DNA of 64,000 bases from Nakamurella sp. PAMC28650 (GTDB lineage Bacteria > Actinomycetota > Actinomycetes > Mycobacteriales > Nakamurellaceae), in contig NZ_CP060298.1 in the NCBI RefSeq assembly GCF_014303395.1, positions 1,612,001 through 1,676,000 on the forward strand, in the 5' to 3' direction. Of this stretch, positions 37,241 to 47,865 are shown in pieces; within the stretch, counting starts at the first letter, position 1; the number at the start of each line of letters is the position of its first letter. The notes beneath the pieces are model-generated. The model was given only the letters and a program-made list of their open reading frames with translations. It did no database searches and was not told the DNA's origin. The position numbers and the translations under genes are program-made.

Positions 37241-38506
37241 CTACTTCAGCAGAGATTGCAGCGCAGTCACCTTGGCCCCCACGGGGGTCGACCAGTCGTC
37301 TTCGACCAGACCCCCGGTGTTGCCCTCCGGATTGAAGGCCCAGTAGCCGAAGCTCATCTTGTTCTGGTCCAGATAGCTGACCAGGGCACCCATCCACTGC
37401 CGGTCCGAGGTGCTCTCCAGCTTCGTACCGAATTCGCCGAGCAGCACGGGGGCCAGGTTGTTCTTCTGGAGATAGCCGAAGTTCCTGTCCCACATGCCCG
37501 GAAGGTTCGCGGGGTAGTTCTTCGCGGTGAACCACGGATGCATGTTGACACTGGACGGGAAATCGTGCGGGGAGTACACCAGCTGGTGCGCCACGCCCAG
37601 CACGACGGGATGGGCCGCAACGTCCTGCAGCTCGCCGCCCCACTGCGCGTAGGTTCCTGCGGCCGACTTCTCTATGCCCTCGACGATGATCAGCAGGTGC
37701 GGGTCGGCCGCACCGACGGCGTCACCGGCTCTCTTCGCAGCCGCGGCCCAGTCTCGCGCGGCCACCCCGCATCCCCAGCAGGCGCTGCCGTGCGGCTCGT
37801 TGTCCAGGTCGGCACCGACGACGGCCGGGTCGTTGCGGTAGCGCTTGGCGAGCATGACCCAGTCGGCGATCCACGTGCTCTCGGGATAGGCGGCGGTGTA
37901 CCAGAGTTCTGACTGTGCAGCCGAATCCGGCCGATGCCGATCGAGGATCACCCGCAGTCCATGGGACCTGGCCGAGGCCACGACGGCATCCATGATCTGC
38001 AGTGGTGTCTTCTTCTGCAGGTCCGGGTTCCTGGTCGCGTCGATACCAGTGGCGGGGGTGCGCTGCTGGAGGCACTGGCTGGAGTAGGGCAGCCGTATCG
38101 TGTTGAAGCCGAGACCGGCGATCGTCGTCATTCCGCCGTCGAGGCTGATCTTCCACAGACCGTCGGGGGCGCAACTGGCCGTTTCCAGCCCGAACCAGTT
38201 GGCGGCCCTGATGCGAAACGGCGTTCCGGCTGCATCGAGGATCCGGGATCCGGAGGTATGCAGCCGGGTCAGCGGTGGGCCGGTCACCATTGTCGCGGTG
38301 GACGCGGACGTGGTTTTGGCACCCGATGGCACTGGGATCGTCTGCGATCCGGTCGTGAACTGCTGCGCCGCATCGACGAGGAACTGCGGGCGGCGGGTGT
38401 CTACTCGCGCGGGCGATTCGGCGGATGGCGCTACGAGTCGTGCAACCAGGACTACAGCTCTAATGCACCGGATCGTGATGGCTGCGGTGCGCTGCAGAAA
38501 TGGCAT
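37241..38506 (-). CDS. Glycoside hydrolase family 5 (cellulase-like)
   Basis: A 421-residue secreted glycanase. The N-terminus is basic with a hydrophobic stretch (AVVLVARLVAPSA), a weak signal or anchor. The GH5 barrel contains RIRAANWFGLE, IRLPYSSQCL, VILDRHRPD, the acid/base Glu in DLDNEPHGSA and the nucleophile Glu in LLGEFGTKLE. It is homologous to endo-beta-1,4-glucanases. It is divergent from the cellulose-synthase-like gene, and a glycanase beside a GT2 synthase is the usual arrangement for trimming or releasing the polymer. Start: MPFLQRTA at 38506; a longer start up to 38569 is possible. Confidence 0.88.
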   Translation of the reverse strand: MPFLQRTAAITIRCIRAVVLVARLVAPSAESPARVDTRRPQFLVDAAQQFTTGSQTIPVPSGAKTTSASTATMVTGPPLTRLHTSGSRILDAAGTPFRIRAANWFGLETASCAPDGLWKISLDGGMTTIAGLGFNTIRLPYSSQCLQQRTPATGIDATRNPDLQKKTPLQIMDAVVASARSHGLRVILDRHRPDSAAQSELWYTAAYPESTWIADWVMLAKRYRNDPAVVGADLDNEPHGSACWGCGVAARDWAAAAKRAGDAVGAADPHLLIIVEGIEKSAAGTYAQWGGELQDVAAHPVVLGVAHQLVYSPHDFPSSVNMHPWFTAKNYPANLPGMWDRNFGYLQKNNLAPVLLGEFGTKLESTSDRQWMGALVSYLDQNKMSFGYWAFNPEGNTGGLVEDDWSTPVGAKVTALQSLLK

Positions 38507-38669
38507 CGTGAGTGTCAGGTCGGACGCCGACCACCGTATCCAAGGCCCGGCCATGGCGCGGGACATCACACCGGGTAGTCGGAATCATCCCATCAGGCAT
38601 ACCGGGGGCGCATTGGGATGAGAGGGGCTTCCAGGCGCCGGTGTTCGTCGATTCCGCACGTAACTTTAA

Positions 38670-38753
38670 ATGGTGACCACCACTGGAACCGAAGGCTCCC
38701 GCGCGACTCCGGTCGCGCCTGAGGTCTTGTACCGTAGGGGACCTCGGCCTTGA
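38670..38753 (+). other. Short frame that may be the true N-terminus of the GT2 synthase
   Basis: ATG 38670 opens a 27-codon frame reading MVTTTGTEGS and ending LYRRGPRP then TGA at 38751-38753. It stops exactly where the synthase frame starts (TTG 38750), overlapping it by two bases. Read through with a one-base shift, RGPRP would join LTRLFGIRVL, a sensible basic cytoplasmic start before the first membrane helix. So either the gene has a one-base lesion here or this is a translationally coupled mini-ORF. Confidence 0.5.
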
Positions 38754-40702
38754 CGCGGCTGTTCGGCATCCGCGTCCTCATCGTCGTCACGCTGGCCTTC
38801 GGCATCGACTACGTCGTGTGGCGGTGGTTCTTCTCGGTGAACTGGTCGCAGTGGTGGATCGCCGTGCCGTTGGTGATCGTCGAGACCTACAGCCTGATCG
38901 ACTGCATGCTCTTCGGCCTGACCATGTGGAAGCTCAAGGAGCGACCCGAACCCGGACCGCCGCCGGACGACGTCAGCGTCGACGTGTTCATCACCACCTA
39001 CAACGAGCCCATCGACCTGGTGATGAACACCGCGATGGCGGCCAAGGCGATCACCTACCGGCACAAGACCTGGGTGCTGGACGACGGCAACCGGCCGGAG
39101 ATGCGCGCCGCCGCCGAAGCCGAGGGAATCGGCTACATCACGCGCTCTGAAGAGTGGGTCGGGCACTCCCGACATGCCAAGGCGGGCAACCTGAACAACG
39201 CCCTCGGGGCCACCGACGGCGAGTTCATCCTGATCCTGGACGCCGACCAGGTGCCGAAGCCGACCATCCTGGACCGCACTCTGGGCTACTTCTCCGACCC
39301 GGCCGTCGCGCTCGTCCAAACCCAGCAGTTCTTCATCAACGTGCCCACCGAAGACCCACTCGGCAGTCAGGCGCCATTGTTCTACGGCCCCATCCAGCAG
39401 GGCAAGGACGGGTGGAACGCAGCCTTCTTCTGCGGCTCCAACGCAGTGCTGCGCCGCGAGGCGATGATGCAGATGGGCGTCCGTGGTTACGTGAAAGAGG
39501 TCGAGCAGTCGATTCGAAAGGCCCTCAAAGCCGCGGACCAGGTGCTCACCAAGGCCCGCAGGCGGGGCGCCGCGACACCGGGCGAGGCCACCGCAATCAA
39601 TCGGGTGTCGGCGGCCGTCGGAGTGGCCAACCAGCAACTGGCCAGGGGCGAGCTGCTCGCTGAGATCACCTTCGACTTCCAGCTGGCGGTCGATGACGCC
39701 ACCCATGACGTGGTGTCAGCGGACCTGGCCGCGCTGGAGGCCGATCTGGCCGAGATCAACCGGCTGTCAGGCGGTTCGGATCACCCGGGCGGTCTGCTGG
39801 TCGACGACGCCGCGGTCGAGGCGCTGGCGCGTCGGGACTGGTCGCCGCTGGGCGCCCTCGAATCGGTGCGGGCACTGGTCAAGACCATCGACGTCGACCG
39901 GTTCGACGAAGCCCAGCCGGTGATGCCGATGGCCACCATCTCGGTCACCGAGGACATGGCCACCGCGATGCGGCTCCATTCGCACGGTTGGAAGACGGTC
40001 TACCACCACGAGTCCCTCGCCGACGGCCTCGCCCCCGAGGACCTCAACACGATGTTGACGCAGCGGCTGCGCTGGGCGCAGGGCACCATGCAGGTGATGA
40101 TGCGCGAGAACCCCCTGACGCAGAAGGGTCTCAGCACGCCGCAGCGGTTGATGTACTTCGCCACCATGTGGAGTTACCTGTCGGGCTTCGCCGCCCTGGT
40201 GTACATCGCCGCCCCGATCGTCTACCTCTGCTTCGGTGTCCTTCCGGTGCATGCCTTCAGCCTGGACTTCTTCATCCGGTTGATCCCGTTCCTGCTCTGC
40301 AACCAACTGCTCTTCGTCGTCATCGCGAGGGGGATACGCACCTGGCGGGGCATGCAGTACAGCCTGGCGCTGTTCCCGGTGTGGATCAAGGCCTTCACCA
40401 CCGCTTTCGGCAATGTGCACTTCGGCAAGAGCCTCGGTTTCGCCGTCACCCCCAAGACCAAGCAGGAATGGTCGCCGCAGTGGGGTCTGATCCGGCCGCA
40501 GTTGATCGCGATGTCGGCGCTGTTCATCGCCTGCATCGTCGGTGTCATCCGGATGTTCGAAGGTCACGCAGCCGTCAGCAGCACCCTGATCAACATCGCC
40601 TGGGTCGGCTTCGACCTGCTGTTGCTCGGAACCGTCATCACCGCCGCCAGGTACCGCGGCTTCGTCGCCCATGAACCGAGTGAGAAAGGTGTGTCCGTCT
40701 GA
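38750..40702 (+). CDS. Cellulose-synthase-like GT2 glycosyltransferase with large insertion
   Basis: A 650-residue inner-membrane processive glycosyltransferase. Catalytic motifs are LDDG (110-113), LDAD (163-166), TED (400-402) and QRLRW (438-442), all intact. Transmembrane helices lie at about 8-60 and 465-640. Compared with BcsA it has about 155 extra residues (roughly 242-396) between the CGSNAVLRR and TED motifs, rich in Ala/Leu and predicted helical or coiled coil (ADLAALEADLAEINRL). It ends after the last helix with no PilZ domain, so direct c-di-GMP activation is not expected. The listed start is TTG; see the short frame just upstream. Its stop overlaps the STAS gene by one base. The polymer is likely a beta-glucan or beta-linked amino-sugar. 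Confidence 0.9.
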   Translation: MTRLFGIRVLIVVTLAFGIDYVVWRWFFSVNWSQWWIAVPLVIVETYSLIDCMLFGLTMWKLKERPEPGPPPDDVSVDVFITTYNEPIDLVMNTAMAAKAITYRHKTWVLDDGNRPEMRAAAEAEGIGYITRSEEWVGHSRHAKAGNLNNALGATDGEFILILDADQVPKPTILDRTLGYFSDPAVALVQTQQFFINVPTEDPLGSQAPLFYGPIQQGKDGWNAAFFCGSNAVLRREAMMQMGVRGYVKEVEQSIRKALKAADQVLTKARRRGAATPGEATAINRVSAAVGVANQQLARGELLAEITFDFQLAVDDATHDVVSADLAALEADLAEINRLSGGSDHPGGLLVDDAAVEALARRDWSPLGALESVRALVKTIDVDRFDEAQPVMPMATISVTEDMATAMRLHSHGWKTVYHHESLADGLAPEDLNTMLTQRLRWAQGTMQVMMRENPLTQKGLSTPQRLMYFATMWSYLSGFAALVYIAAPIVYLCFGVLPVHAFSLDFFIRLIPFLLCNQLLFVVIARGIRTWRGMQYSLALFPVWIKAFTTAFGNVHFGKSLGFAVTPKTKQEWSPQWGLIRPQLIAMSALFIACIVGVIRMFEGHAAVSSTLINIAWVGFDLLLLGTVITAARYRGFVAHEPSEKGVSV

Positions 40703-41034
40703 TGATCTTCGACGTCGAGTATCCGCAGGAGGGCGCAGCCGTGATCACCGCGAACGGCCGGCTGAACATGGTGGCGGCGCCCAGGCTCCGTGAGCTGATC
40801 ACCGTCACCGTCAACGACAAGGGTTGCTCCCGGGTGGTGGTCGACCTCAACGACACGGAGTTCATCGACTCGTCCGGGCTCGGCGCGCTGATCGCCGGTC
40901 TGAAGACGGCGCGGACCGCGGGCGGGGACCTGCGCATCGCCCGTCCCCAGGAGCAGATCACCACGGTGTTGGAACTGACCAACATGCATCGGGTGCTCCG
41001 GTCCTACGCCAGTGTGGCCGAAAGCCTCGCGTGA
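40702..41034 (+). CDS. STAS-domain anti-sigma-factor antagonist-like protein
   Basis: A 110-residue single STAS domain. The phosphorylatable serine motif is FIDSSGLGALIAG, as in SpoIIAA/RsbV/SypA proteins. Its ATG overlaps the synthase stop by one base and its stop overlaps the next start (GTGA), so all three are coupled. In the family an RsbW-like kinase phosphorylates the serine and a PP2C phosphatase removes the phosphate. Both activities are predicted in the next gene. The target (sigma factor system, synthase or another partner) is unknown. Confidence 0.92.
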   Translation: MIFDVEYPQEGAAVITANGRLNMVAAPRLRELITVTVNDKGCSRVVVDLNDTEFIDSSGLGALIAGLKTARTAGGDLRIARPQEQITTVLELTNMHRVLRSYASVAESLA

Positions 41035-42764
41035 GCGCGGCCACCACCCTGGAACGCACCCTGCAGCACTGCGTGCAGCCGGCCGACCTGGACCGGATCC
41101 ACGAGTTGCTCGCCGACTTGTTCAGCGATGCAGGGGATGTCGACGGGCGGGACCGGATCGGCTTCGAGTTGGCCGTGATCGAGGTGGCCGGCAACATCGC
41201 CGAGCACAGCAGCCGCAGCCCGGGCTTCACCTGCGATCTGGTGATACGGATCCAGCCGGACCGGCTCGAGGCGGAGTTCCGCGACAGCGGCGAGGAGATC
41301 ACGGTGGATCTCGATGACGCACAGCTGCCGGACGACCTCGCCGAGAGCGGTCGCGGGCTGGCCATCGCACGGGCCGCCGTGAGCGAGTTGACCTACCTGC
41401 GCGAGGGGTCGGAGAACACCTGGCGGATCCGGCGTGACCGCACGGTCGTCGAGCCTGCTCCGAGCGTCGCCAACCCCCGCCGTCTGAAGGCGGCACAGAC
41501 CGCGGCGCCCCGACCCGGCATCGTGCTGGTGGTGGAGGACGACCCGGACCTGGGTGGTTTCCTGCGTGCCGCGCTGGAGCGGAAGGTGGACCGGAAGGTC
41601 CGGCTGGCCGAGAACGCGCTCCTGGCCATGAAGATCCTCTCCGAGGAGTCGGTGGACGTCCTGCTGACCGACATCCAGATGCCCGGGATGACCGGTCTGG
41701 AGATGGTCAGCAAGGTCCGTCAGAGTTTTCCGGCCCTGCCGATCATCATGATGACGGCGCATGCAAGTGTCGACTACGCCATCTCCGCGTTGCGTCATCA
41801 GGTGGACGAGTTCCTGGTCAAGCCGGTCTCGGCTGCGCAGTTGGTGCCCAAGGTCAAGGACCTGGCCGCTCGCGGCGCCGCCGCCCGCCAGACCGCCCGC
41901 GCGCTGGCGAACGCGGATCCGGCGGCGACCGCCGAGGCGGAGATGGTGCGCCTCGAGCGGGAGATGCTCCAGGACCTCGCGAACACGATGGGCCTGCAGA
42001 CCAGCCTGTCGCAGCAGCTGGAGCAGGCCGCGAAGGTGCAGCGAGACCTGTTGCCGCGCAAAGCTCCGGTGCTGGCGGGCTGGGATCTGGCCGGTACCTG
42101 CGTGCCGTCCTTCGCCATCGGCGGCGATTTCTACGACTGGTACCCGCGGGCCGGGGGGGTCGAGTTCGTCGTCGCCGATGTGATGGGCAAGGGCATCCCG
42201 GCGGCGCTCGTCACGGCCACCGTCCGCGCGGTGATGCGCGGTATCGATCTCTCGGCCGGCCCGGGGCAGTCGATGCGGACGGCAGCCGCCCTGCTCACCC
42301 ACGACCTGGAGGAGACCGGCACCTTCGTCACGATGTTCCTGGGTCAGTTGGACGGCGCCAGTGGAACGCTTCGGTACGCCGATGCCGGGCACGGGCTCAG
42401 CCTGCACGTCAGGGCCGACGGTTCGGTCGGCCAGTTGGTCAGCGACGACCTACCGCTCGGCGTCGAAACCGGTGTCCCCGGGGTGATGTCGCGGGGGGAG
42501 CGCGAGATCACCCTCGGGCCGGGGGACAGCCTGGTGTCCTTCAGCGACGGCCTCTTCGATCTGCTCGGCGGTGATCGCCAGGCCATCGACGAGATCGCGG
42601 CGATCATCTCCGGTGCCCGGTCCTGCACCGACATCATCGACCGGGTCACCGCTCTGGCGTCCGGGAACACCCTGATCGACGACGTCACCGTGGTCGCGCT
42701 GAGACGGGACAGCTCGGTCCCCGCGCTGACGACCACTGTTCCCATCGTCACGGAGGAATCATGA
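41031..42764 (+). CDS. HATPase-REC-PP2C three-domain regulator (SypE-like)
   Basis: A 577-residue switch protein. Residues 1-140 are an RsbW-like serine kinase ATPase domain with N-box ELAVIEVAGNIAEHS, FRDSG and GRGLAIA. Residues 163-280 are a receiver with D214 (LLTDIQMPG) and K264 (FLVKP). A coiled region (about 300-340) leads to a PP2C phosphatase (345-560) with metal Asp in GGDFYDW, VADVMGKG, SDGLFD and DDVT. The order kinase-REC-PP2C is that of Vibrio SypE, which controls the STAS protein SypA. Here a STAS gene directly precedes it, and phosphorylation of D214 should set the kinase/phosphatase balance on that protein. Start GTG 41031 overlaps the STAS stop. Confidence 0.93.
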   Translation: MSAATTLERTLQHCVQPADLDRIHELLADLFSDAGDVDGRDRIGFELAVIEVAGNIAEHSSRSPGFTCDLVIRIQPDRLEAEFRDSGEEITVDLDDAQLPDDLAESGRGLAIARAAVSELTYLREGSENTWRIRRDRTVVEPAPSVANPRRLKAAQTAAPRPGIVLVVEDDPDLGGFLRAALERKVDRKVRLAENALLAMKILSEESVDVLLTDIQMPGMTGLEMVSKVRQSFPALPIIMMTAHASVDYAISALRHQVDEFLVKPVSAAQLVPKVKDLAARGAAARQTARALANADPAATAEAEMVRLEREMLQDLANTMGLQTSLSQQLEQAAKVQRDLLPRKAPVLAGWDLAGTCVPSFAIGGDFYDWYPRAGGVEFVVADVMGKGIPAALVTATVRAVMRGIDLSAGPGQSMRTAAALLTHDLEETGTFVTMFLGQLDGASGTLRYADAGHGLSLHVRADGSVGQLVSDDLPLGVETGVPGVMSRGEREITLGPGDSLVSFSDGLFDLLGGDRQAIDEIAAIISGARSCTDIIDRVTALASGNTLIDDVTVVALRRDSSVPALTTTVPIVTEES

Positions 42765-43819
42765 CCACGCCGTACCACGTGCTGGTGGTCGAGGACGATC
42801 CGGACGTCGCCGAGTTCGTCAAGCTCGTTCTGATCAAGCGGGCCGGGATGGTCGTGCAGATGGCCAACAACGCGAACCTCGCCTTCGAACTGTTGCAGCA
42901 GCACGAGTTCGATGCCCTGATCACTGATATCGAGATGCCCGGCGCCTCGGGTCTCGACCTGGTGGCCAGGGTGCGGCAGCTCCGCCCACAGCTTCCCATC
43001 GTGGTGATGACGGCGCACGCATCGGTCGACTACGCCGTCACCGCCCTGCGTCACGCCGCCGACGAGTTCCTCACCAAGCCGATCGCCTCCGCCTACCTGG
43101 CGGCGCGGATGACAGCCCTGGCCGAGCGGGGCAGGGCCGACCGCATCGCCGCAGCCGGTCAGGTGATCCTGGCCATCGGCGCCCACCCCGACGATGTCGA
43201 GATCGGTGTCGGTGGCCTGCTCGCCGCGCACCGGGCCGGCGGCGACTCGATCGTCATCCTCACCATGTCCAGGGGCGATCGGGGCGGTGACCCCAACGAC
43301 CGACAGCACGAATCACTGGCGTCCGCCGACCTTCTCGATGCCCGGCTGTTCCTGGAGGATCTGGTGGACACCAAGATCGGCCCGGCCGACCCGACCGTCT
43401 CGATCATCGAGCGGGTGGTCGCCGAGGTGGCGCCGAGCATCGTCTACACGCACTCGTCGCACGATCGTCACCAGGATCATCGGGCCGTCCATCAGGCGAC
43501 GACGGTGGCCACCCGTCGGGTGCCCACCGTCGCGTGCTACCAGAGTCCCTCCGCCACCGTCGATTACCAACCCAACAGATTCGTCCCGATCGACGGGTTC
43601 ACCGATGCGAAGATGGCTCTGCTGGCGTGCTTCGCCTCGCAGAGCGACGTCCGCGCCTACCTGGAGCCGGACTTCGTGCTGGCCACCGCCAGGTACTGGT
43701 CGCGATTCGGCGGCGGCCGCAGTTGCGAGCCGCTCGAGGTCATCCGCGACACCTCCGGGATCGGGCAGGTCGGCACACCGTCCCGGCGGGTCGCGGCTCC
43801 TCTGCCCGGTCTGGTCTGA
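42761..43819 (+). CDS. Response regulator fused to PIG-L/LmbE deacetylase
   Basis: A 352-residue protein. Residues 5-125 are a receiver (EDDPDVAEF, D56 in LITDIEMPG, K106 in FLTKP). Residues 134-340 are a PIG-L zinc de-N-acetylase, with AIGAHPDDVEIGVGG (H142, D145) and the second ligand region HSSHDRHQDHRAVHQ intact. PIG-L enzymes deacetylate GlcNAc-type substrates. A receiver as the input domain suggests phosphorylation controls the deacetylase. It starts 4 bases inside the upstream stop (ATGA). It lacks a signal peptide, so it acts on a cytoplasmic precursor or nucleotide sugar rather than the exported polymer. Confidence 0.92.
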   Translation: MTTPYHVLVVEDDPDVAEFVKLVLIKRAGMVVQMANNANLAFELLQQHEFDALITDIEMPGASGLDLVARVRQLRPQLPIVVMTAHASVDYAVTALRHAADEFLTKPIASAYLAARMTALAERGRADRIAAAGQVILAIGAHPDDVEIGVGGLLAAHRAGGDSIVILTMSRGDRGGDPNDRQHESLASADLLDARLFLEDLVDTKIGPADPTVSIIERVVAEVAPSIVYTHSSHDRHQDHRAVHQATTVATRRVPTVACYQSPSATVDYQPNRFVPIDGFTDAKMALLACFASQSDVRAYLEPDFVLATARYWSRFGGGRSCEPLEVIRDTSGIGQVGTPSRRVAAPLPGLV

Positions 43820-43823
43820 GCAG

Positions 43824-44258
43824 ATGACTTCCCTCCCGACCGAATCCCCCACTCCCACCGCCGGCCCGGCGCCCGCCCCGGACATCGCGCCGCCGGCCGG
43901 TCCTGATCCGACCGTGCTGATCGTCGACGACGAACCAGACCAGTTGGGACTGCTGACCGCGTATTTCACGCGGGCCGGCTGCACCGTCATCGCACTGTCC
44001 ACCGGTGAACAGGCGCTCGCGCTGCCGAGTGCGATCCCGCTGGACCTGATGCTGCTGGACCTCCTGCTGCCGCGGATCAACGGCTGGGAACTGACCAAGC
44101 GGCTGCGCGAGCGCCACCCCGGCTGCCCGATCGCCATCACCTCGATCCTCGAGCCCGAGCACTACCCACAGGCGGACGCCGTCCTGCCCAAACCCGTGAC
44201 CAAGGCGCAGATCCGACAGTTGCTCGCGACGACGATCCCGAGATGGGAACCGAGATGA
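43824..44258 (+). CDS. Single-domain response regulator
   Basis: A 144-residue protein with a Pro/Thr/Ala-rich N-terminus (1-30) and one receiver: IVDDEPDQLGLL, the phospho-Asp in LLDLLLPRING and the Lys in VLPKP. It has no output domain. It probably acts by protein contact or as a phosphate sink/shuttle from the histidine kinase encoded two genes downstream. Coupled to the next gene by an ATGA overlap. Confidence 0.88.
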   Translation: MTSLPTESPTPTAGPAPAPDIAPPAGPDPTVLIVDDEPDQLGLLTAYFTRAGCTVIALSTGEQALALPSAIPLDLMLLDLLLPRINGWELTKRLRERHPGCPIAITSILEPEHYPQADAVLPKPVTKAQIRQLLATTIPRWEPR

Positions 44259-44677
44259 CAGTGGTAGCAGAGCAGTTGGGCGACGCCCCGCACGTCCCGT
44301 TGGTGGTGATCGCCGATGACGACGCAGACATCCGCCGGCTCGTGGAGGTGGCGGCCGGCCGGGCCGGCGCGATCGTCGGAGCCAACGTCGCCGATGGCCT
44401 CGCCGCCCTCGAGGCGATCCGGGAGCTGCGTCCGGACCTGGCGATCCTGGACGTCTCGATGCCGGGCATGGACGGACTGGATGTCTGCCGAGCTGTCCGG
44501 GCGGAGGATGGCATGCGGGGCACCAAGATTCTGCTGCTGTCCGCTGCCGTTCATCCGGAGGCGATCAAGGCCGGCCGCCTGGCCGGTGCAGACCTCTACG
44601 GACAGAAACCATTTCGGCTCAAAGTACTGCAGGAACAGATTCTCGGGCTGTTGAGCATCCAGTTGTCGGCGCGATGA
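44255..44677 (+). CDS. Single-domain response regulator
   Basis: A 140-residue receiver: VIADDDADIRRL, phospho-Asp in LAILDVSMPGMDGLDV, Ser in LLLSAAV and Lys in GQKPF. It has no output domain. ATG 44255 (overlapping the previous stop) is preferred to ATG 44243. It overlaps the histidine kinase start by 4 bases, so the two are probably a cognate pair. Confidence 0.88.
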   Translation: MTVVAEQLGDAPHVPLVVIADDDADIRRLVEVAAGRAGAIVGANVADGLAALEAIRELRPDLAILDVSMPGMDGLDVCRAVRAEDGMRGTKILLLSAAVHPEAIKAGRLAGADLYGQKPFRLKVLQEQILGLLSIQLSAR

Positions 44678-46482
44678 GCGGGGCCGGGCTCCTCCAGCGG
44701 CCGGCCGCCCTGACCACCGGACGGCCGAAGCAGAACGACATGGTGCGTCACCTCCACCGGCTCGCGTCCGACCCGAACTCGGTGCTGGAAAGGCAGCTGT
44801 CCATCGCGGTCGTCTTCGCGTTGTCGTTGTCGGTGCTGGCGCTTCCGTTCTCCCGCGGGGCGAGCAGTGCCGGGGTGTTGGTGGCCGCGGTGTTGATGGC
44901 CGCGAGCACCGCGGCCGCCTTCGTCCTCCACCGGCCGGCCTACCACTGGCGAACGGCGGCCATCGTGCCCCTGGTCGACATCCTGGCGGTCGGATTCCTG
45001 CGCGCCGCGACCGGCGGGCCCTCCTCGGTGTTCGGAATCATGCTGGTGCTGCCGGTGATCTCGCTCGGCGTGGAGCCGGGCCGACTGCCGCTGCTGTTCG
45101 GCGGAATCGTCACCGTCGGCGCCATGATGCTGCCGCTGGCCTTCAATTCGGCCGCTTTCGCCGGGGGCCAGTGGATCAGGGTCTTCTTCACGCCGATCAT
45201 GCTGGGTCTGACGTGCGTCTTCGTCAGCGTGCTGACCAGGCGCCTTCGCTCTCGGGTCCGGGCCGTCGAGCAACTGCGCGGTGACCAGGAGATCCTGCTC
45301 GCTGCGGCCCAGGATCACGCCGATGCCAGTGCCTCGGCCTCTGCGTTGCTCCGCGAGTCGGCCAATCAGCTGTCCAGCATCATCGACGGCGTGACCGAGC
45401 AGGCCATCATCGCCACCGATCCCGCCGGGCGCATCGAGATGTTCAACTCGGGCGCCCAGAAGATGCTCCGCGTGGCGGCCCACGACGTGATCGGTCGCTC
45501 CATCATCGACCTGGACTGGGCGCGGGAGCCGGCCCAATCCGGCGATCAGCCACGGACACCGTCGACGGCCGGCCGGTTCGCGGCGCTGGTCGCCGGCGTC
45601 CGCCCCGGTCGGCCGCAGCTCGGTGATCACACCTATCAGGCGAACGGCCGCCCGCCCATGCAGATCCAGGTGGCGATCACCGCCCGCCGCGATGCCGCCG
45701 GTGACATCGACGGATTCCTCTTCGTCGGCACCGACGTCACCGTCGATCGTGAGGCGGCCAAGATGAAGGACGAGTTTGTCAACCTGATCTCGCACGAATT
45801 GCGGACTCCGCTGAGTTCCATTCTCGGCTACCTCGAACTGATCGCCGACGACGACGACAATCCGTTGTCGGACGAGCAGCTGAAGTATCTGGCGACCGTC
45901 GACCGAAATGCGAACCGGCTGCTGCGACTGGTCTCCGATCTTCTGTTCACGGCTCAGGTCGAATCCGGTCGTTTTCATCTGCAGAAGGAATCGGTTGACC
46001 TGCAGGCACTGGTGGTGGCGGCGCTGGAAACGGCCACTCCGGGTGCAACTGCGCGCAACGTGGCGTTGCGGATGTCCGTCCCGCCGGAGGCCGTGGACGT
46101 CTGGGGCGATCCCGGCCGGCTCGGGCAGGCGGTGGACAACCTCATCTCCAACGCGGTCAAGTTCACGCCGGCCGGTGGCCGGGTCGTCGTCACCCTCGGC
46201 ACCACCGACGAACCGGAGCCGAGGGCGCTGATCGGCGTCACCGATACCGGTATGGGCATTCCGCCGGACGAGGTGGACAGATTGTTCTCGAGGTTCTTCC
46301 GGGCCTCCACCGCGACCGCCAATGCCGTTCCCGGTGTGGGATTGGGCCTGACCATCACCAAGGCGATCGCCTCTGCACACGGCGGCGAGATCCGGGTGGC
46401 CAGCACGGTGGGGGAGGGAACCATCTTCGTCCTGGACCTGCCGAGGATGGCGAAGGCACCCATTCCCGTGCCGGCGTCCTGA
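44674..46482 (+). CDS. Membrane sensor histidine kinase with PAS domain
   Basis: A 602-residue kinase. The N-terminus has about five to six membrane helices (residues 40-190) with almost no periplasmic loop, so it may sense the membrane or an intramembrane signal. A coiled linker is followed by PAS (about 240-355), then HisKA with H374 (LISHELRTPLSSILG). The ATPase domain has DNLISNAVKF, DTGMGIP and GVGLGLTI. No receiver is attached. It is the last gene of the overlapping set and the natural phosphodonor for the four receivers in the operon. Confidence 0.93.
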   Translation: MSGAGLLQRPAALTTGRPKQNDMVRHLHRLASDPNSVLERQLSIAVVFALSLSVLALPFSRGASSAGVLVAAVLMAASTAAAFVLHRPAYHWRTAAIVPLVDILAVGFLRAATGGPSSVFGIMLVLPVISLGVEPGRLPLLFGGIVTVGAMMLPLAFNSAAFAGGQWIRVFFTPIMLGLTCVFVSVLTRRLRSRVRAVEQLRGDQEILLAAAQDHADASASASALLRESANQLSSIIDGVTEQAIIATDPAGRIEMFNSGAQKMLRVAAHDVIGRSIIDLDWAREPAQSGDQPRTPSTAGRFAALVAGVRPGRPQLGDHTYQANGRPPMQIQVAITARRDAAGDIDGFLFVGTDVTVDREAAKMKDEFVNLISHELRTPLSSILGYLELIADDDDNPLSDEQLKYLATVDRNANRLLRLVSDLLFTAQVESGRFHLQKESVDLQALVVAALETATPGATARNVALRMSVPPEAVDVWGDPGRLGQAVDNLISNAVKFTPAGGRVVVTLGTTDEPEPRALIGVTDTGMGIPPDEVDRLFSRFFRASTATANAVPGVGLGLTITKAIASAHGGEIRVASTVGEGTIFVLDLPRMAKAPIPVPAS

Positions 46483-46591: not shown

Positions 46592-47865
46592 ATGAAGCTC
46601 CATTCGGCCATGACCGGCGATCTGACGGCCGGGGCGCCACCGGCGGACGTCGGGTCGATCGTGTCCGCAGGTCGGGTCCGAACTCTCTTCCAGCCGATCG
46701 TGGACCTCGAGTCCGGTGCGGTCGTCGGCTACGAGCCGTTGAGCCGGGGACCCTCCGGGCCGCTGGAGGCACCGGACCTGCTGTTCGCCGCCGCCCGGGA
46801 GGCGGACCTCCTGCAGGAACTCGACGAGCTCTGTCGCGCAACGCGCTGGGCACCGCCAGGTCGGCCGGGATCGGTGATCCGATGACGCTGTTCGTCAACG
46901 TCGAACCCGAGACGGTCAGCGAACTGTTCCTGGAACGCCTGGTCGCTTCGGCGCAGGAGGTCGACCCGTGCCTGCAGCTGGTGCTGGAGATCACCGAACG
47001 TGCCCTGGACTCCCGGCCCGCCGAGTTGCTGCGGATCATCCGCCGGTTGCGCAGGGCGGGCTGGCGGATCGCGATGGACGACGTCGGCGCCGACGACCTG
47101 TCGTTGGCCTTCATGTCGCTGCTGCAACCCGACATCATCAAACTGGACATGTCCCTGGTGCAGGGCCGGCCGACCCAGGGCGGCGCCCAGATCATGAACG
47201 CCGTCAACGCCTATGCCGAGCGGACCGGCTGCCTCATCCTGGCCGAAGGCATCGAGACGGCCACTCATCTGGAGATGGCACGCGCCCTGGGGGCCCGGCT
47301 GGGTCAGGGCTGGATGTTCGGTCGTCCGACCCGGGTGGTGCCACCGGCCGCGGCGGTCCGACGGCTCGGTTTCCGGGCGCAGATCGTTCCGGAAGCGGTC
47401 TACTCGCCGTTCGAGGACCTGACGACCGGCTTGACCGTCCGTCGATCGACCAAGCTGCTGCTGGTCCAGGTCAGCAAGACGCTGGAGGCCGAGGCGGCGC
47501 TGCTGGGTACGACCGCCCTGGTGCTGTCGACGTTCCAGGAGGCCAAGAACTTCACCACGGCAACGGCGGACCGCTACCGGAGGCTGGCGCAGAAGGTCGG
47601 CTTCGTTGCGGTGTTCGGCCGTGGGGTCACCGCGGAGCCCACGGCGGGTGTGCGCGGAGGCGACCTGCACCCCGACGACCCGATCGTCGGTGAGTATGAC
47701 ATCGCTGTGCTGTCACCACATTTCGGCGCCGCGCTGCTGGCCCGCGACATCGGTGACGCCGGACACGACGAGGCGCGCCTGTTCGAGTTCGTCGTGACCT
47801 ACGACCGCAGGATCGTCGAGCGGGTGGCCGAGACGCTCCTGACCCGCATCCGCCCCGCCAGGTGA
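46592..47865 (+). pseudogene. EAL-DICT c-di-GMP phosphodiesterase, frameshifted
   Basis: Two frames together encode an EAL domain and a C-terminal DICT sensory domain. The first (46592-46885) has LFQPIVDLESGAVVGYEPLSRG, the EAL start. The second (46882-47865) has TLFVNVEPET, LEITERAL, MDDVGADD, IKLDMSLV, LAEGIET and QGWMFGRP, so all EAL catalytic residues exist across the pair. At about 46830 the coding moves one base back: after LCR the continuing sequence is NALGTARSAGIGDPMTLF. The ATGA overlap at 46882 could allow reinitiation, but splitting an EAL barrel there would be unusual. A missing base, real or by sequencing, is more likely. Confidence 0.82.

Follow-up and report, generated by a model that had tools for sequence, protein, structure and literature searches.

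The window, i.e., the whole 64,000-nucleotide stretch of Nakamurella sp. PAMC28650 DNA analysed here, carries at 38750-46482 a run of seven genes, all on the forward strand, whose features are as follows:

38750..40702, + strand: GT2 processive synthase, BcsA-like, without PilZ; 650 aa, TTG start
39485..39940, + strand: inserted, predicted helical bundle, GT2 residues 246-397, between FFCGS and TED; candidate switch receiver
40702..41034, + strand: STAS-only protein of anti-sigma-factor-antagonist type (Pfam, NCBIfam); candidate phosphosite Ser57 in FIDSSG
41031..42764, + strand: fusion of HATPase_c_2 (RsbW-like kinase), REC and SpoIIE/PP2C phosphatase (Pfam)
42761..43819, + strand: REC and PIG-L N-deacetylase (Pfam); part of a second, genus-level module
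43824..44258, + strand: single receiver domain, REC1 (Pfam); second module
44243..44677, + strand: single receiver domain, REC2 (Pfam); second module
44674..46482, + strand: membrane histidine kinase with a six-helix PilS-like membrane region (6TM), PAS, HisKA and HATPase_c (Pfam); second module

The first-pass annotation had described these genes as overlapping or abutting, and both the coordinates and the domains were borne out by Pfam and the translations: the GT2 and STAS genes share a TGATG overlap, the STAS gene overlaps that of the HATPase-REC-PP2C fusion by 4 bases, and a gap of 4 separates REC-PIG-L from REC1. Such an operon is far above chance, because its domains exceed the Pfam cut-offs and the set of GT2, STAS, HATPase and PP2C recurs across many genera. 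The seven-gene operon is real, yet it is made of two joined modules, and the earlier view of it as one conserved unit was not supported, since the PIG-L/kinase half is located apart in other Nakamurella. The unit that is conserved across genera comprises the first three genes only (GT2, STAS and HATPase/PP2C).

The remaining four genes (REC-PIG-L, REC, REC and histidine kinase) are a separate Nakamurella module, which in other members of the genus has its own location, in three of them beside a different GT2, and homologues of REC1 and REC2 adjoin the kinase there as well. The PIG-L domain was clearly identified (PF02585, 72.9 bits against a cut-off of 28.2), and the translation contains HPDD and HDRHQDH, which we take to be the PIG-L metal motifs. 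The receivers of the PP2C fusion and of the PIG-L protein are 52% identical, a resemblance that is consistent with a shared input to the phosphatase and the deacetylase. It had been proposed that one kinase serves several of these receivers; this identity and the relative genome G011, in which the kinase and both single receivers lie beside the switch, lend the idea some weight, and phosphotransfer itself stands as its prediction.

The synthase shares with BcsA of E. coli and Rhodobacter the core fold and the FFCGS, TED, QxxRW and FxVTxK motifs; it has a GT-A core with the D, DxD, TED and QxxRW residues, together with a transmembrane channel, and it scored 349.8 bits on the NCBIfam CelA model (TIGR03030), below the cut-off of 699.1. 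FFCGS is the acceptor site, and TED provides the catalytic base at the tip of the finger helix. BcsA differs in having a C-terminal PilZ domain that binds c-di-GMP. As previously noted for the window, the synthase has no Pfam match to PilZ, and its alignment to the solved BcsA stops at residue 634 of 650. In the same alignment, a stretch of approximately 152 residues lies between FFCGS and TED, immediately before TED, where BcsA has a single residue, and structure models predict it to be a plain helical bundle (helices 236-271, 277-298, 303-340, 353-362 and 366-379). This insert had escaped the first-pass annotation. Searches with the GT2 of genomes sampled by class (394 genomes), family (17 genomes) and one genus (147 genomes) yielded 52 full-length genes of this kind, 24 from the class and family samples and 28 new ones from the genus sample, which contained 37 insert-bearing genes, 9 of them counted already. 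Their FFCGS-to-TED spacing was 172-194 throughout; in the 47 distinct weaker GT2 matches from these samples and a phylum sample (396 genomes), it was exactly 23 in every case. A tree built from core columns only placed the insert-bearing genes in one clade (support 1.0), so the association of insert and switch cassette reflects one origin rather than many independent ones.

The genes next to this synthase are those of a partner switch: a STAS protein, an RsbW-like HATPase and a SpoIIE phosphatase, with the active-site motifs of the RsbU/RsbV/RsbW type. The STAS protein scored 75.5 bits on TIGR00377 (cut-off 53.45), and its DSSG columns are conserved at 95% or more both in 81 synthase-linked STAS rows and in 24 rows from loci without GT2. 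It is the only match to the PF01740 profile in this genome, and 41031..42764 is the only SpoIIE phosphatase match. Within the fusion, HATPase_c_2 occupies residues 17-134, REC 165-275 and SpoIIE 375-559. The N-box Glu/Asn and the E-x-GRG box of the HATPase are kept, and the window protein has no second Gly in the G1 box. The DxG box is absent at the aligned place in 58 of 106 HATPase rows, including those of Arthrobacter, G011 and the cassette-bearing genome G545, which fits poorly with a classical kinase in those proteins.

Linkage of the synthase to the switch was almost invariable. Both STAS and HATPase adjoin the synthase in 51 of the 52 full-length clade genes (23 of 24 in the class and family samples, and 28 of 28 newly counted in the genus sample, of which 26 also had PP2C), the single exception lying at a contig end. 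Around the 47 weaker GT2s, no HATPase or PP2C was found within about 5 kb on each side (less at contig ends), and a lone STAS match, on the opposite strand, was seen near one of them. Among 92 insert-bearing entries, many of which came from a switch-based scan, STAS lies directly downstream of the synthase on the same strand in 80, and these keep the order GT2-STAS-HATPase, with PP2C found on either the upstream or the downstream side. The first-pass annotation would have fallen had no relative shared the gene order; relatives in many genera do, which supports its central claim of a partner switch tied to a PilZ-less synthase. When 30 loci (two of them without gene calls) were clustered, only GT2, STAS and the merged HATPase/PP2C clusters reached at least five genus-level groups, and the flanks otherwise vary between genera. 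The cassette is patchily distributed, occurring in 3 of 17 genomes of Nakamurella, in 22 of 394 from the class and in 2 of 396 from the phylum, and at 21 of 80 gathered loci STAS, HATPase and PP2C are present without GT2. Twenty genomes whose switch locus lacks the GT2 or is incomplete were searched for an insert-bearing synthase; 9 of them gave none (four of the nine being MAGs), so the switch can probably serve another target too. Ten insert-bearing entries, from genomes selected for a switch elsewhere, have no switch gene within 1.5 kb and likewise weigh against control of the synthase by the switch. We recognised no published description of the cassette from titles and the starts of abstracts, in a search that most subscription journals lay outside.

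Some of the parts are familiar from elsewhere. SypE and SypA of Vibrio fischeri, acting with RscS, likewise pair an STAS-only protein bearing a DSSG serine with a kinase, REC and phosphatase in that order, in a gene set for the control of biofilm polysaccharide with a sensor kinase upstream, according to the portions of the sources available (PMC10120452, PMC8256260). Pfam finds the same order in the single window protein, and kinship with SypE had been suggested on that account. In that form it was not supported: among the best 120 homologues listed, 5 have the fusion, one of them being the window protein, and it is local to a few Nakamurella-like proteins; it is split into separate HATPase and REC-PP2C genes in G011, and in several other genera the phosphatase has a GAF domain as its input. 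For these reasons the SypE-like arrangement, compared by domain order and not by SypE sequence, is probably convergent. The phosphatase input thus varies (REC or GAF), while synthase, STAS and HATPase are constant, i.e., a variable input feeds a fixed output. In the sections available, HmpU/HmpV/HmpW of Nostoc punctiforme are also described as a partner switch, encoded in a locus for motility and polysaccharide, and the target on which HmpV is believed to act is given as unknown (PMC10120452, PMC8256260); by that description, in which an insert-bearing synthase is not mentioned, the two systems differ. Anabaena all4160, again compared by its description in the part available, carries a STAS domain at the N-terminus of a glycosyltransferase (PMC8256260), i.e., the two are fused in one protein, whereas the STAS protein here is separate.

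Many soil actinobacteria have a cellulose-synthase-like enzyme with an extra helical domain near its active site, almost always beside the switch genes, and this proximity suggests direct on-off control of the enzyme by the switch. We favour, at a probability of roughly 0.55, post-translational control of the synthase by the switch, with STAS (or the HATPase) most likely docking on the insert. The synthase would extrude a polymer, presumably beta-glucan-like; the HATPase would phosphorylate STAS on Ser57, and the phosphatase, gated by its own receiver domain, would remove the phosphate. The phosphorylation state of STAS would then set synthase activity after translation, with STAS, or HATPase released by it, docking on the helical bundle just before TED, a position from which it could restrain or release the finger helix; by analogy with SypA, unphosphorylated STAS would be the active form. 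In this operon, the histidine kinase at 44674-46482 probably phosphorylates the PP2C receiver and probably also controls the receiver-PIG-L deacetylase. The fuller version, in which the insert beside the finger helix reads STAS phosphorylation and replaces control by c-di-GMP and PilZ across many actinobacterial genera, is tentative, and we hold it at slightly under even odds. A co-evolution test on 40 pairs favoured insert with STAS (bootstrap 0.002), and a larger set requiring a nearby PP2C gave weaker values (0.088 and 0.34), with PP2C showing a like preference (0.028). Leaving out 3 to 6 divergent lineages abolished the insert-STAS signal (0.18 to 0.70), and this support for the pairing is not robust.

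Partner switches of this phosphorylation type normally control gene expression, and the parts here (STAS, RsbW-like HATPase, SpoIIE phosphatase and their conserved motifs) are those of RsbU/RsbV/RsbW and of SpoIIE/SpoIIAA/SpoIIAB. The HATPase could therefore be an anti-sigma factor and STAS its antagonist, with a SigB/F/G-type sigma factor transcribing the synthase operon and the insert having some other role. A SigB/F/G match above the cut-off is present in 14 of 24 cassette genomes, and this genome has one SigB/F/G-like factor, at G000:C1:51282-51932, which at 193.1 bits stays below the cut-off; no HATPase_c_2 match was found near it, and it gives a sigma output some weight here. That factor, however, lies far from the cassette (C1:51 kb vs C1:1,651 kb), and G545 carries the cassette with only principal-sigma-level matches (best 131.8 bits against 234.35). 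In departure from the classical switches, the genetic output here is a polysaccharide synthase, and a sigma factor would account neither for linkage to one synthase clade nor for the insert; we consider it unlikely, and the synthase the probable target.

The insert might instead be a domain for oligomerisation or for a partner subunit, with the switch acting elsewhere on the pathway. Plant cellulose synthases have two insertions in the catalytic region, P-CR and CSR, which in the part of the source available are thought to affect oligomerisation (PMC6821405), and a helical bundle as plain as that predicted here would suit such a role. Oligomerisation alone, though, needs no link to a switch, and the insert is in every one of the 52 genes sampled from the switch-linked clade and in none of the 47 weaker, cassette-less GT2s, an argument limited by the single origin of the insert; this explanation too appears rather improbable. 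Least probable, in our estimation, is that the four genes spread together as a mobile or selfish unit and that the switch makes no direct regulatory contact with the synthase. The patchy distribution and differing flanks would fit such a cluster, but the order GT2-STAS-HATPase is kept despite the shifting side of PP2C, and ten insert-bearing entries, from genomes selected for having the switch elsewhere, have no switch gene within 1.5 kb, i.e., synthase and switch are both present though split apart. In the favoured reading, by contrast, the insert would be the contact site and would receive the signal in place of PilZ and c-di-GMP.

The wider relevance of the cassette lies in the output of such switches. 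The targets of SypA and HmpV are described as unknown in the portions of the sources available (PMC8256260, PMC10120452), and here an insert-bearing synthase is linked to the switch in many genera, so that the genetics points to a target and to a domain within it, which makes the question testable with three small proteins. If the proposed control is correct, it would be c-di-GMP-independent gating of a BcsA-like processive polysaccharide synthase. The FFCGS-TED spacing offers a simple way of looking for such synthases in the sequence of any genome.

Seven plus-strand genes, each overlapping or abutting the next, make up the operon, and a check of the gene coordinates agreed with the first-pass annotation in this. 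The Pfam domains run in the following order:

38750-46482, plus strand: GT2/cellulose-synthase-like; STAS; HATPase_c_2-REC-SpoIIE; REC-PIG-L; REC (REC1); REC (REC2); 6TM-PAS-HisKA-HATPase kinase

The closest named relatives of the GT2 synthase are in Nakamurella sp. UYEF19 (90%), GG22, N. endophytica and N. panacisegetis. Within the source genome, a single contig of 5.63 Mb, PF01740 STAS and the SpoIIE phosphatase (PP2C) each have one match, the operon's own, and the operon's HATPase_c_2 is the highest-scoring of 21, the remaining 20 lying in open frames of 433-898 aa; the partners of the STAS protein are thus probably the adjoining domains. Two neighbours of the operon were also observed:

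37241-38569, minus strand: GH5 cellulase, divergent from the synthase and with no match among the other loci searched
46592-46885 and 46882-47865, plus strand: directly 3' of the kinase, an EAL domain divided between two frames (Pfam positions 9-66 in the first; 86-236, together with a DICT domain, in the second); the gene is probably broken or frame-shifted

Because sampling by the switch genes was to be avoided, linkage was assessed with GT2 as the query. Full-length close GT2 genes numbered two in the phylum sample of 396 genomes (that of the window and one in genome G230), 22 in the class sample of 394 (these two included, all at E 5.7e-239 or better, with one broken copy besides), and two further in the family sample of 17. 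STAS and HATPase adjoin GT2 in 23 of these 24, and in the last (L186) the contig stops right after GT2, with PP2C upstream. PP2C lay inside the short flank in 21 of the 24; that of G011 was found on a longer stretch, none was seen in 20 kb in G005, and the contig of G575 ends before any is seen. Among 147 genomes of Nocardioides (the genus of G576) were 37 full-length GT2 genes bearing an insert, a helical bundle between FFCGS and TED (~152 residues in the window's synthase); nine were already counted, and the other 28 had STAS and HATPase in every case and PP2C in 26, giving a combined total of 51 of 52 with STAS and HATPase adjoining. As a control, 47 distinct weaker GT2 matches (E 5.9e-54 to 7.3e-31) from the same phylum, class, family and genus searches were all inspected over about 5 kb per side, less near contig ends: none of these stretches held HATPase or PP2C, and one (L305) held a single STAS match, on the opposite strand and about 2.4 kb away.

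From the switch side, named genomes were scanned with HATPase-REC-PP2C as the query, and 80 loci were retained: 55 with GT2, STAS, HATPase and PP2C, 21 with the latter three and no GT2, two with PP2C only, one with HATPase and PP2C, and one, on a short contig, with GT2 and PP2C. PP2C varies in position: most entries have it upstream of GT2, others downstream of HATPase. Of 92 entries with the insert-bearing synthase, 80 have STAS following it on the same strand, and in 79 of these only 5-46 nt separate the last GT2 codon from the start of the STAS domain match, so the two genes overlap or almost do; of the remaining 12, ten had no switch gene in the flank, one, on a short contig, had PP2C alone, and G011 was divergently arranged. 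When 30 loci from the switch scan and other fetches were clustered by gene (two yielded no gene calls), the only clusters to reach at least five genus-level groups were GT2, STAS and a merged HATPase/PP2C; a histidine-kinase cluster reached four and others three. The arrangement noticed in the first-pass annotation is real and conserved, and its Vibrio fischeri SypE/SypA analogy is the right one, but its seven-gene unit was drawn too wide.

DSSG stands at 95% or more in the STAS alignment, and through this motif Ser57 of the window protein corresponds to SypA Ser56; the HATPases keep the N-box Glu and Asn and the E-x-GRG box, and the SpoIIE motifs that we take to be metal-binding are kept, some at 70-95% in rows lacking GT2. 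DxG is missing at its aligned place in 58 of 106 HATPase rows, including Arthrobacter, G011 and G545, and retained in 48; the window protein has DSG and lacks the second glycine. The 58 rows without it, from Arthrobacter and certain further cassettes (e.g., L188 3721-4200), still have N-box and E-x-GRG. In the proteins scanned, the phosphatase input domain is REC in Nakamurella, Cellulomonas and Arthrobacter, and GAF in Mycobacterium, Nocardioides, Auraticoccus, Cryobacterium, Microcella, Herbiconiux and three further genera.

REC-PIG-L, with REC1, REC2 and the kinase to varying completeness, lies elsewhere than the cassette in other Nakamurella genomes, near a NodC/PgaC-like GT2 in G005 and near such a GT2 and an ATP-grasp gene in G011 and G012; in G011 the kinase, REC2 and REC1 adjoin the switch, with PIG-L at another place. 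The phosphatase receiver shares 52% identity with the receiver of REC-PIG-L; with REC1, REC2 and two Arthrobacter receivers it shares about 30% at most. On the simplest reading, one kinase serves two output receivers, and Nakamurella uses the kinase module with two different synthases. At three loci in other Nakamurella genomes, a receiver-gated PIG-L has single receivers and a NodC/PgaC-like GT2 in its neighbourhood, which may form a system for a chitosan-like polymer under two-component control:

L121 10017-17065: kinase also nearby
L123 2943-10440: kinase also nearby
L129 10085-14987

Could the switch act on a sigma factor instead? The source genome's one SigB/F/G-like factor (G000:C1:51282-51932, L133), the best in that genome, falls under the curated cut-off and has no HATPase_c_2 match near it; the gene beside it appears GAF-ANTAR-like from its sequence. 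Matches above the cut-off occur in 14 of 24 cassette genomes, and G545 has nothing above the level of a principal sigma factor, so that a sigma output is possible in some genomes and not needed for the cassette. A further 21 genomes were searched for the synthase: 20 whose switch locus is partial or lacks GT2, and the genome of L081, where both occur. An insert-bearing GT2 was present in 12 of the 21; nine, of which four are labelled MAGs (L044, L045, L046, L100), yielded none, and the switch can thus probably operate without this synthase. In a group that includes Arthrobacter agilis, the insert-bearing synthase is encoded at a different place from the switch in the same genome (L246-L253 and L260; loci L049, L050, L059, L061, L062, L066, L068 and L083).

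The insert, overlooked in the first-pass annotation, is the strongest clue to mechanism. A co-evolution comparison, by contrast, gave a preference that did not hold up across data sets. Over 40 pairs, STAS distances correlated more closely with the insert than with the core, taken as its 152 most variable columns (Spearman 0.53 vs 0.30; bootstrap share not above zero, 0.002), and HATPase distances had no such preference. Once Nocardioides was included and PP2C had to lie nearby, the STAS preference drops to 0.67 vs 0.61 (0.088) and PP2C has a similar one, 0.57 vs 0.48 (0.028); without the PP2C requirement the STAS values are 0.64 vs 0.52 (0.012), and the preference is gone once four divergent STAS lineages are removed (0.63 vs 0.59; 0.182).

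In Nocardioides, in a genus related to it and in Arthrobacter, the neighbourhood of the cassette encodes large proteins that carry an OpgC acyltransferase domain at the C terminus:

L237 4701-7634, minus strand
L242 11243-14143, plus strand
L075 14464-16986, minus strand

They hint at a decorated glucan. In our judgement, the probability that the cassette of GT2, STAS, HATPase and PP2C is a functional unit is about 0.9; it is likely that the switch controls the synthase, and we would put even odds on the insert being the receiver of the switch.
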